Made by a program: the position numbers and the translations under genes. The notes under the pieces were generated by a model, which worked only from the letters and a program-made list of their open reading frames with translations, was not told the origin of the DNA and did no database searches. From the NCBI RefSeq assembly GCF_900111015.1, contig NZ_FOFS01000001.1, positions 248,001-312,000 of the forward strand: 64,000 bases of DNA, written 5' to 3'. The stretch's first letter is position 1. Every line of letters starts with the position of its first letter. Positions 20,196 through 22,528 of this stretch are shown here, in pieces. The stretch comes from Solimonas aquatica. Its GTDB lineage: Bacteria; Pseudomonadota; Gammaproteobacteria; Nevskiales; Nevskiaceae.

Positions 20196-20460
20196 GCTGT
20201 TTACCGCTCCGGTTGAGCGGGACCCGAACGCAGGCCCCGGGGCGATGGCCTGAGGCCATCGGCAGATGAGTGAGAAAGCAGGGCAGGGCCGCGTCACGCG
20301 TGCAGAGGCGCAGGACGGCCAGAGGCGGGCAGGGCTTGCGTCCTTCGCAAGCGGCAGGGCCGCGCAGTCTACGCGAGCGTGGCCGTCGGCGCGCCGCTGG
20401 CGCCGCCATTAAACTCGCCGGGAACTTGCCGCAGCTGCGGATTCAGCGTAATTTTCGCGC

Positions 20461-20512
20461 CGCGCCGATTTGATCCCAGCTTGCGGGCGCTTAATAAATG
20501 CAGCTAAACGGT
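20461..20512 (+). promoter_or_regulatory. SAM-II riboswitch aptamer upstream of metZ
   Basis: The sequence carries the SAM-II core in order: P1 arm GCGCC (20462-20466), GATTTGATCC, a TTGC-containing loop, P1 closing arm GGCGC (20486-20490), then AATAAATGCAGCTAAA. It aligns by eye with the known SAM-II (metX leader) sequence, including GATTT, TTGC, ATAAATG and the invariant AGCTAAA tail that forms the pseudoknot with S-adenosylmethionine. It lies about 60 bases upstream of metZ, a standard SAM-II target. Confidence 0.88.
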
Positions 20513-20530
20513 CGATGAGCCCGTTTCAGC
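20503..20530 (+). promoter_or_regulatory. Candidate antiterminator hairpin of the metZ leader
   Basis: GCTAAACGG (20503-20511) can pair with CCGTTT-C-AGC (20521-20530) in nine base pairs with one bulged C. The 5' arm uses the GCTAAA that the SAM-bound aptamer needs, and the 3' arm uses the 5' half of the terminator, so the three structures exclude one another. This is read directly from complementarity; function is inference. Confidence 0.7.
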
Positions 20531-20554
20531 ATTTTCAAGCTGGCGGGCTTTTTT
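20518..20554 (+). terminator. Intrinsic terminator in the metZ leader
   Basis: AGCCCG-TTT-CAGC (20518-20530), loop ATTTTCAA, GCTG-G-CGGGCT (20539-20549), then TTTTT. The stem has ten base pairs around a small internal loop. It lies between the SAM-II aptamer and metZ and so fits premature termination when SAM is abundant. Confidence 0.88.
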
Positions 20555-20573
20555 GTTTGGGCAGGAGTGTGCT

Positions 20574-21761
20574 GTGAAGGAATTCTTCGATCCCGACTGG
20601 GGGCCGGCGACGCTGGGCGTGCGCGCGGCCGAGCCGCGCGGCGAGAACGGCGAGCATTCGGCTGCGATCTCGCTGACCTCCAGCTACGTGTTCCGCAATG
20701 CCGCCGAGGCCGCCGCCCGCTTTTCCGGCGCGCAGGATGGCTACATCTATTCGCGCTTCAGCAATCCCACGGTCGAGGCCTTCGAGCGACGTCTGGCGGC
20801 CATGGAAGGCGGTGCGAGTTGCGTGGCCACCGCCAGCGGCATGGCGGCGGTGCTGAGCCTGTGCCTTACCGTGCTCAAGGCCGGGGACCACATCCTGTCC
20901 TCGCGTGGGCTGTTCGGCTCCACCATCAATCTGTTCAACAACTATCTGACCAAGTTCGGCATCAGCGTGAGCTATGTCGATCAGACCGACCTTGCGGCCT
21001 GGGAAGCGGGCCTGCGGCCCAACACGCGCCTGCTGTTCGCCGAGACGCCGACCAATCCCCTGGTGGAGCTGGCCGACATCGCGGCGCTGGCCGACATCGC
21101 GCATCGTCATGGCGCGCTGCTGGCGGTGGACAACTGCTTCCTGACGCCGGTGCTGCAGCAGCCGCTGAAGCTGGGCGCCGACTTCGTGGTGCATTCGGCC
21201 ACCAAGTACATCGACGGCCAGGGTCGCTGCGTGGGCGGCGCCATCGTCGGCGACGCGCAGCGCGTGGGCAAGGACGTGTTCGGCTTCATGCGCACGGCCG
21301 GTCCTTGCCTGAGCCCCTTCAATGCCTGGGTGTTCCTCAAAGGCCTGGAGACGCTGTCGGTGCGCATGAAGGCGCATTGCGCCAATGCCCAGGGCCTGGC
21401 CGAATGGCTCAGCGAGCAGGTGGCGGTGCGTCGCGTGCATTACCCGGGCCTGCGCGAGCATCCGCAGCATGCACTGGCGCAGCGTCAGCAGGCGGGCTTC
21501 GGTGCGGTGCTGGCCTTCGAGGTCGAAGGCGGTCGCGAAGAGGCCTGGCGCGTGATCGACGCCACGCGCCTGCTGTCCATCACCGCGAATCTGGGCGATG
21601 CGCGCAGCACCATCACCCATCCGGCCACCACCACGCACGGCCGCATCAGCGCCGAGGCGCGCGCCCAGGCCGGCATCGGTGAAAACCTGCTGCGCATCGC
21701 GGTGGGCCTGGAGGATCTGAAAGACCTGCAGGCGGATCTGGCGCGCGGTCTTTCGGGATGA
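20574..21761 (+). CDS. metZ: O-succinylhomoserine sulfhydrylase
   Basis: 395 residues; PLP enzyme of the Cys/Met metabolism family making homocysteine from O-succinylhomoserine and sulfide. PLP lysine K211 lies in FVVHSATKYIDGQGR, and AETPTNPLVEL and SRFSNPTVEAFE are family signatures. The start is GTG 20574, set by GCAGGAG six bases upstream; an in-frame TTG at 20553 falls in the terminator T-run. Controlled by the SAM-II riboswitch upstream. The stop overlaps the next gene (ATGA). Confidence 0.95.
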   Translation: MKEFFDPDWGPATLGVRAAEPRGENGEHSAAISLTSSYVFRNAAEAAARFSGAQDGYIYSRFSNPTVEAFERRLAAMEGGASCVATASGMAAVLSLCLTVLKAGDHILSSRGLFGSTINLFNNYLTKFGISVSYVDQTDLAAWEAGLRPNTRLLFAETPTNPLVELADIAALADIAHRHGALLAVDNCFLTPVLQQPLKLGADFVVHSATKYIDGQGRCVGGAIVGDAQRVGKDVFGFMRTAGPCLSPFNAWVFLKGLETLSVRMKAHCANAQGLAEWLSEQVAVRRVHYPGLREHPQHALAQRQQAGFGAVLAFEVEGGREEAWRVIDATRLLSITANLGDARSTITHPATTTHGRISAEARAQAGIGENLLRIAVGLEDLKDLQADLARGLSG

Positions 21762-22528
21762 ACGCGCAGCAGCGCGCCGCCTGGCGTGCGGCGCTGGCGA
21801 TCTGCGATCCGCAGGCCAAGTGCGAGGCGGTGGCGGCGCTGGCGGCCGGGGATTTCGCTGCACCGGCCGATGCAGCGCAGGCGCCGCTGCCGGGACGGCC
21901 GGACAAGCCCGCGCTGGTGCATCCGCGCGAGGTCGCGCATCGCGGCCTGGGCACTGTGGCCGGTCGCATCGCGCTGCTGCACGCGGTGGCGCACATCGAG
22001 TTCAATGCCATCAATTTGGCGCTCGACGCCGGTTTTCGTTTCGCCGACATGCCGGAGGCCTTTCACGCCGACTGGTTGAGCGTGGCGGTGGACGAGGCGC
22101 GGCACTTCCAGCTGCTGCGCACGCGCCTGCGCGAACTGGGCGCCGACTACGGTGATCTGCCCGCGCACAACGGGCTCTGGGAAGCCGCCGAGAAGACCGC
22201 GCACGATCCGCTGCTGCGCATGGCCCTGGTGCCGCGCGTGCTGGAAGCGCGTGGCCTGGACGTGACGCCGGGCATGATCCGGCGCCTGCTCGACGTGGGT
22301 GATACGGCGACGGTGGCGGCGCTGGAGGTGATTCTGCGCGAGGAGGTGCGGCATGTGGCCATCGGCACGCACTGGTTCCGCACGCTCTGCGCACAGCGTG
22401 GCCTGGAGCCGGAGGCGGCCTTCGCGCAGCTGCTGGCCGAGCATCGCGTGCGCCTGCAGCCGCCGCTGAATCTGGATGCGCGTCGCGCCGCGGGTTTCAC
22501 CGAACCCGAGTTGTCCCTGGCAGGCTAA
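21758..22528 (+). CDS. DUF455 ferritin-like protein
   Basis: 256 residues. Two ExxH-type helices supply probable di-metal ligands: E in HIEFNAINLA with DEARHFQLL, and E in VLEARGLD with EEVRHVAIG. This ferritin-like arrangement defines the DUF455 family, whose reaction is not established. Translationally coupled to metZ through ATGA, so it may share the SAM-responsive leader; a link to sulfur or iron chemistry is possible but unproven. Confidence 0.87.
   Translation: MNAQQRAAWRAALAICDPQAKCEAVAALAAGDFAAPADAAQAPLPGRPDKPALVHPREVAHRGLGTVAGRIALLHAVAHIEFNAINLALDAGFRFADMPEAFHADWLSVAVDEARHFQLLRTRLRELGADYGDLPAHNGLWEAAEKTAHDPLLRMALVPRVLEARGLDVTPGMIRRLLDVGDTATVAALEVILREEVRHVAIGTHWFRTLCAQRGLEPEAAFAQLLAEHRVRLQPPLNLDARRAAGFTEPELSLAG

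Follow-up and report, generated by a model that had tools for sequence, protein, structure and literature searches.

In the window, the 64,000-nucleotide stretch of DNA analysed here, a metZ gene for an O-succinylhomoserine sulfhydrylase lies behind a leader that combines the motifs of a SAM-II aptamer with an intrinsic terminator (Table 1). An earlier note, made from the sequence alone, had named the gene, the terminator and the motifs. The protein matches two MetZ families above their cut-offs, the hairpin behind the aptamer runs into a U-tract, and P1, GATTTG, GCTTGC and GCTAAA are all where the note had placed them. Its view that the host is gammaproteobacterial is borne out by the nearest relatives of MetZ, which come from four Solimonas species (82-84% identity), followed by Sinimarinibacterium and Nevskia. 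A gene for a DUF455 protein begins 4 bases before metZ ends and is likely to share its transcript. Upstream of the aptamer is a promoter-like pair of hexamers. The corresponding pattern, TTG-N3 / TA-N3-T with a spacer of 17-18, is present in 22 of the 23 non-redundant Nevskiales leaders, where it ends inside one 3-base range (6-8) before P1; a stricter consensus promoter scan of the leader found no promoter. Because of this fixed distance to P1, the transcript probably begins at or near the first P1 base (~20461-20462). A terminator scan picked up the inner stem of the hairpin (1 site, with 0.6 expected in shuffles), and the stability of the leader as a whole is unexceptional (z -1.05).

Table 1. 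Features of the metZ leader and adjoining genes (positions in the window)
Feature	Position	Strand	Evidence
-35-like hexamer TTGCCG	20426-20431	+	promoter-like pair kept in Nevskiales leaders
-10-like hexamer TAATTT	20449-20454	+	promoter-like pair kept in Nevskiales leaders
P1 5' arm GCGCC	20462-20466	+	covariance models, folding, P1 covariation
Conserved GATTTG	20467-20472	+	alignment
P2 pseudoknot, 5' side (weak)	20476-20477	+	alignment
Conserved GCTTGC	20479-20484	+	alignment
P1 3' arm GGCGC	20486-20490	+	covariation over 62 aptamers
GCTAAA	20503-20508	+	conserved block
Presumed ligand-contacting strand, GCTAAA plus CGG; predicted antiterminator 5' arm	20503-20511	+	pairing energies, folding, alignment
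Predicted antiterminator 3' arm, overlapping the terminator 5' arm	20521-20530	+	pairing energies, folding, alignment
Intrinsic terminator hairpin	20518-20549	+	-16.0 kcal/mol for 20515-20556
Outer terminator stem, AGCCCG with CGGGCT	20518-20523 with 20544-20549	+	folding
Inner terminator stem, CAGC with GCTG	20527-20530 with 20539-20542	+	folding
Terminator U-tract	20549-20554	+	sequence, folding
Shine-Dalgarno-like AGGAG, beyond aptamer and terminator	20563-20567	+	sequence, folding
metZ, O-succinylhomoserine sulfhydrylase, GTG start	20574-21761	+	NF006003 668 bits, TIGR01325 568 bits, both above cut-off
DUF455 protein	21758-22528	+	PF04305, 311 bits

Covariance searches confirmed positions 20459-20518, ahead of metZ, as a SAM-II aptamer; the genome is Solimonas-like (Nevskiales). 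The Rfam model of SAM-II (RF00521, SAM_alpha) was matched at 35.8 bits over its full length (model positions 1-79 of 79). The match has an E-value of 3.4e-6 across the whole 4.43 Mb genome and is the sole one there at E ≤ 0.001; the identical search of 14 control genomes returned zero matches. The check with this model that the earlier note had proposed was thus borne out in significance and length; the leader falls 0.2 bits short of the curated cut-off of 36 bits, and for this reason SAM-II is absent from the output of a default Rfam scan of the window. The assignment to SAM-II does not hang on that model. Another covariance model (R2), trained on 49 class aptamers with no Nevskiales sequence among them, scored the same positions at 62.9 bits (E 4.8e-15), the runner-up in the 64 kb having E 5.1. 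The class is meant here in the sense of GTDB, whose Gammaproteobacteria take in the former Betaproteobacteria. A second model, R1, was trained partly on the window's family and class and gave 69.3 bits, a score that is not independent because the window sits inside R1. SAM-V (RF01826) is set apart from the window by zero matches to its model at E ≤ 5 in positions 20350-20650. Its SAM-binding pseudoknot is described as somewhat like that of SAM-II (Meyer et al. 2009, PMC2704228). With SAM-II as represented by RF00521 (Corbino et al. 2005, PMC1273637, for the element as described there) the window shares P1, the GATTTG, GCTTGC and GCTAAA blocks, a methionine gene behind, the terminator and a predicted OFF logic; it differs in a short and irregular P2 and in a score just under the Rfam cut-off.

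The earlier note had further claimed that the strand containing GCTAAA can pair with the 5' arm of the terminator. In our folds nine pairs join GCTAAACGG (20503-20511) to CCGTTTCAGC (20521-20530), C20527 being bulged, at -8.8 kcal/mol. Against the stretch before the U-tract, GCTAAACGG reached -10.6 kcal/mol, compared to a mean of -5.1 in 200 dinucleotide shuffles (p ~0.01). That this helix and the terminator exclude each other, as the note had it, gains comparative support from pairing energies and alignments. Transcripts of increasing length were folded from 20455, a few bases ahead of the expected start. The six loop-proximal pairs of the antiterminator had probabilities of 0.74-1.00 with the transcript ending at 20532, 20536, 20540 or 20544, and its three outer pairs (GCU) had 0.9 at 20532, 0.28 at 20536 and 0.12 at 20544; the terminator pairs reached 0.70-0.73 at 20548 and 0.95-0.99 at 20552. 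In the fold from 20455 a second GCGCC (20457-20461) captures the P1 3' arm; the expected transcript lacks most of this element. Since the terminator greatly exceeds the antiterminator in stability (-16.0 against -8.8), the full leader is predicted to terminate at equilibrium with or without SAM, and a switch must therefore be kinetic. In such a kinetic switch the antiterminator would act solely until the 3' arm of the terminator emerges.

These folds suggest how the leader may work. GCUAAACGG (20503-20511) includes bases that touch SAM in the solved structure of SAM-II. When SAM is scarce, GCUAAACGG would pair with CCGUUUCAGC (20521-20530) and block the 5' arm of the terminator as RNA polymerase crosses ~20531-20544, and metZ would be read. 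Bound SAM would let the folded aptamer keep GCUAAA; no antiterminator would form, and the terminator would fold once its 3' arm is out, stopping transcription at the U-tract. SAM would thus tilt the kinetic switch by removing GCUAAA. With an aptamer identity, a conservation, a gene and a pair of mutually exclusive helices established by computation, we read the locus as a SAM-II riboswitch that shuts metZ off via transcription termination; we put the probability of this reading at about 0.87, with SAM as the presumed ligand and with the direction and size of the effect, as well as the kinetic control, predicted from sequence. The nearest described counterpart is the SAM-II of Sinorhizobium meliloti metZ, which shares the aptamer class, the gene name and a predicted SAM-dependent terminator and is reported in that account to yield a ~100 nt sRNA, more abundant in rich medium (Scheuer et al. 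2022, PMC9373788). Unlike the window it is alphaproteobacterial, and the likeness is one of description rather than of antiterminators aligned base by base.

To compare the pairing across leaders, duplex energies were computed with the U-tract cut off. GCUAAA and the three bases behind it, set against the stretch before the U-tract, gave -10.1 in 19 Nevskiales leaders compared to -5.3 in shuffles (Wilcoxon 3.8e-6) and -9.3 compared to -5.9 in 96 other class leaders (5e-14), p-values that are optimistic because the leaders, non-redundant at 90%, are still related. Taken singly, 15/19 and 57/96 leaders had p ≤ 0.05. This test replaced an earlier score that allowed G-U pairs and in which AAA could match the U-tract (p ≤ 0.05 in 7/23 Nevskiales and 44/114 other leaders). 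Leaders without TTTT fared worse (p ≤ 0.05 in 1/4 Nevskiales and 6/18 others); TTTT is missing from the examined stretch in four of the 23 Nevskiales leaders, and nine of the 23 fail a stricter U-tract rule. The complement of GCUAAA, TTT[AG]GC, stands ahead of the U-tract in 61 of the 101 class leaders that have one (~8 expected), namely in 11/14 Nevskiales and 50/87 other leaders; the window, with TTTCAGC, is outside the 61. The 5' neighbour of the word is the outer terminator stem in 49 of these 61 leaders, and the GCUAAA helix extends into the outer terminator arm in 52. The six core bases alone modestly beat shuffles (-5.43 compared to -4.04 in the 14 Nevskiales leaders, -4.55 compared to -3.77 in the 87 others). 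The strand after them was no better than shuffles in Nevskiales (-8.04 compared to -8.75) and worse in the others (-7.68 compared to -8.29, p 0.0012). The 12-base strand clearly beat shuffles in both groups, yet singly reached p ≤ 0.05 in only 49/101.

The position of this complement bears on the strongest alternative, namely that a real SAM-II aptamer exerts its effect chiefly through translation or RNA stability, with a terminator that is a constitutive attenuator or gives rise to a small RNA. That the terminator wins at equilibrium anyway would suit such a leader, and the SAM-II of S. meliloti metA is described as acting on translation, with a terminator not predicted to be SAM-driven (PMC9373788). 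However, the Shine-Dalgarno-like element of the window lies beyond both aptamer and terminator, and a constitutive terminator would have no need of a GCUAAA complement at more than its expected frequency, mostly inside the terminator arm. We regard this alternative as unlikely and retain transcription termination as the preferred mode of control.

The wiring of GCUAAA to the terminator appears to be lineage-specific. The contrast set consisted of 70 loci from other classes of the same phylum, 30 of them best-scoring and 40 hand-picked for family spread, and mostly alphaproteobacterial as far as could be inferred. A strict form of the aptamer pattern lost 29 of these loci; a wider form recovered 67/70 and gives the contrast count, and the class set kept the strict form. 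The 67 yielded 51 non-redundant leaders, 38 of them with a U-tract. In the window the presumed ligand-contacting strand doubles as predicted antiterminator; in contrast, TTT[AG]GC occurs in 0 of these 38 leaders of other classes (1.0 expected), and a first small set of 28 other-class leaders likewise held none. The difference between 61/101 and 0/38 has a Fisher p of 1.8e-12 with relatedness ignored. Pairing in the 38 leaders was no better than in shuffles, be it of the core (-3.11 compared to -3.21) or of the nine bases (-4.67 compared to -4.43, p 0.36). An antiterminator formed by the P2 strand in the other classes was not significant (-12.26 compared to -11.74, p 0.49); one other-class leader (L286) suggests that the P2 strand may be used instead. 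Because the word is found in the class leaders and in none of those from elsewhere, we read the class platform as a variant in which the strand of the binding pocket would serve as antiterminator, and, since 40 of the 101 class leaders are without the exact word, as the majority form and not a rule. In the titles and abstract openings of the open-access SAM-II and metXZ literature, no description of a platform with GCUAAA as antiterminator was found.

P1 has five pairs in the window. Over 62 aptamers, 97.6% of its cells are paired and both sides change in 6/6 pairs; values as high were reached in 0/500 shuffles on four of five measures and in 13/500 on the number of pair types, and every measure drops when the partner is slid. 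P2 too is supported over the 62 aptamers taken together, if less fully: 69.9% of its cells are paired and two of five pairs show both-side changes; column pair 23-60 is C-G in 58/62, pair 22-61 shows five pair types, and the outermost pair is unpaired in 33/61. In the usual register the P2 of the window consists of the single pair C20477-G20511, and slipped by one it has two, C20477-G20510 and C20476-G20511. At the positions of two additional pairs that lengthen P2 in most class aptamers (36 and 46 of 62), the window has mismatches. This short P2 of one to two pairs is the weakest point of the window's membership in SAM-II.

In the window's family, RF00521 matched 16 of 58 genomes (10 above cut-off), and R1 matched 26 of 58, with 10/11 in the window's genus, and found no SAM-II in the other 32. 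Nine of the 26 R1 matches score 29.5-34.5 bits, several being long-hairpin variants or partial. Among 80 listed of 338 MetZ loci, 13 carry the core pattern and one more (L028) carries it with a longer spacer; these loci are titled Nevskiales-type except for one titled Verrucomicrobia (L025), whose leader is identical to one from the window's family. Among the same 80, the core pattern is missing in all 55 Pseudomonas loci and in seven titled Nevskia, Panacagrimonas or Lysobacteraceae (L030-L036). An extra hairpin stands between P1 and the AAAU block in five members of the window's genus (L277, L278, L279, L281 and L284) and in the Nevskia leader L028, and the Nevskiales variants L017, L018, L020 and again L028 have a hairpin inserted there; such an insertion lowers the model score. 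A decayed-looking SAM-II lies before metZ of Panacagrimonas perspica (L031 2372-2418; 10.8 bits, E 0.83). It reads GATTTC and GCTAAG and still has a U-tract behind it.

The weak P2, together with AAACGG where AAAGCG would be usual, might mark a decayed or off-specificity relative of SAM-II that binds SAM poorly or recognises another ligand. The score under the Rfam cut-off would fit such a relative, as would the probably decayed copy of P. perspica and the GCTAAC of another Nevskiales leader, L276. In contrast, GATTTG, GCTTGC, GCTAAA, GGCGC and the terminator CGGGC are invariant in 19 aligned Nevskiales leaders, in an alignment that spans aptamer and terminator and excludes L011, L276, L280, L283 and L284. 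The antiterminator is also retained, and metZ is downstream in 23/23 non-redundant Nevskiales leaders. Decay or altered specificity is therefore quite improbable in our view, and a SAM-responsive aptamer remains the preferred reading.

SAM-II is common in the class. At E ≤ 0.001, RF00521 matched 118 of 369 sampled class genomes, with only 30 above cut-off, and R1 matched 181 of the 369, spread over 132 of 272 genera. Of 398 genomes sampled from the phylum, 84 matched RF00521, 69 of them above cut-off. These counts are lower bounds, because large sets were scored with strict filters. The curated cut-off hides most SAM-II copies in the class. The notion of the earlier note that SAM-II is mainly alphaproteobacterial could not be upheld. 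Gammaproteobacteria already figure in published accounts, one of which places SAM-II in alpha- and gamma-Proteobacteria and Bacteroidetes, with associated terminators mostly in alpha and beta (Barrick and Breaker 2007, PMC2258182), and another of which has it commonest in Alpha-, Beta- and Gammaproteobacteria (Meyer et al. 2009, PMC2704228). The results given by Leyn et al. (2014, PMC4239095) for Rfam models place SAM-II in just Rhizobiales and Rhodobacterales. With SAM-II this frequent among class genomes, we rejected the explanation that the window had imported a rare alphaproteobacterial element.

The 114 non-redundant class leaders outside Nevskiales precede metZ (82), metK (5), metF (3), metY-like genes (3), metN (2), a LysR-type regulator (1) or none of these reference genes (18). 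The aptamers before metK, for SAM synthetase, were found by family scan (L106) and by similarity to L106 (L125, L157, L211 and L225). Two before MetN-like genes, for methionine uptake, are below the family cut-off (L259 2500-2562 and L136); one of them is carried by a Legionella adelaidensis plasmid of 15 kb, where the record end cuts the MetN-like gene. One genome (G304) has 10 SAM-II model matches. Eight tandem SAM-II pairs were also seen (L108, L117, L127, L131, L133, L205, L221 and L223, three being near-copies of others), in which the first aptamer is followed by a U-tract and the second stands shortly before an ORF not evidently related to methionine. These ORFs mostly have no Pfam match, that of L117 being a MoxR-like ATPase; further downstream, L133 encodes an HD-domain protein and L127 a resolvase. 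Such pairs are not a novelty, as 44 tandem SAM-II pairs are reported in PMC9481103.

On the minus strand, the window at 20427-20553 resembles RF02424 (Burkholderia sRNA Bp2_287; 26.3 bits, E 0.00033), below the cut-off of that family (70 bits). At E ≤ 0.001, RF02424 is found at 42 places in 41/369 class genomes, none above its cut-off. All 30 loci examined of the 42 places (L227-L256) carry a SAM-II match on the opposite strand, and the RF02424 consensus, reverse-complemented, reads GATTTGAT, GCTTGC and GCTAAAGC. RF02424 probably represents a SAM-II leader read in antisense. That the locus holds no riboswitch, and is an ordinary terminator/promoter region or encodes a minus-strand antisense small RNA like RF02424, is hardly credible with this opposite-strand pairing and with a promoter-like pair, aptamer core and U-tract that all point to the plus strand.

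A related case is the metXZ element of Betaproteobacteria, presented as new, with no ligand given in its description (Leyn et al. 2014, PMC4239095). As described there, it lies before metX or metZ and shares with the window conserved blocks in a pseudoknot (1-4 / 2-6) and a poly-U terminator. Both Burkholderia arboris and Caballeronia sp. SBC2 have a SAM-II-like aptamer ahead of metZ (L257 2498-2564 and L258 2500-2530), and another stands ahead of a metX (L140 1677-1735, minus strand). All three leaders match R1 and R2, the Caballeronia match being partial, and the metXZ element is therefore probably SAM-II, the comparison being with its description rather than its alignment.

Together, these results point to a true SAM-II riboswitch whose platform would turn transcription OFF. 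Its class and gene are ordinary, and its wiring is apparently lineage-specific. We lean, with some reserve, towards a broader reading in which SAM-II is wired in two ways: in Gammaproteobacteria GCUAAA would be the antiterminator, ligand and terminator arm competing for the same six bases, a pairing absent elsewhere in the phylum. SAM-II would then rank with the methionine controls found most widely in the class, having escaped notice as many copies score just under the Rfam cut-off, and would absorb the metXZ element as well as, in the form of its antisense strand, RF02424. Although SAM-II serves as a structural model among riboswitches, how it affects gene expression is, according to one recent account, little tested (Scheuer et al. 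2022, PMC9373788). The use of the binding-pocket strand as antiterminator would be a minimal design for such control, and the survey suggests a ligand for the orphan metXZ element.
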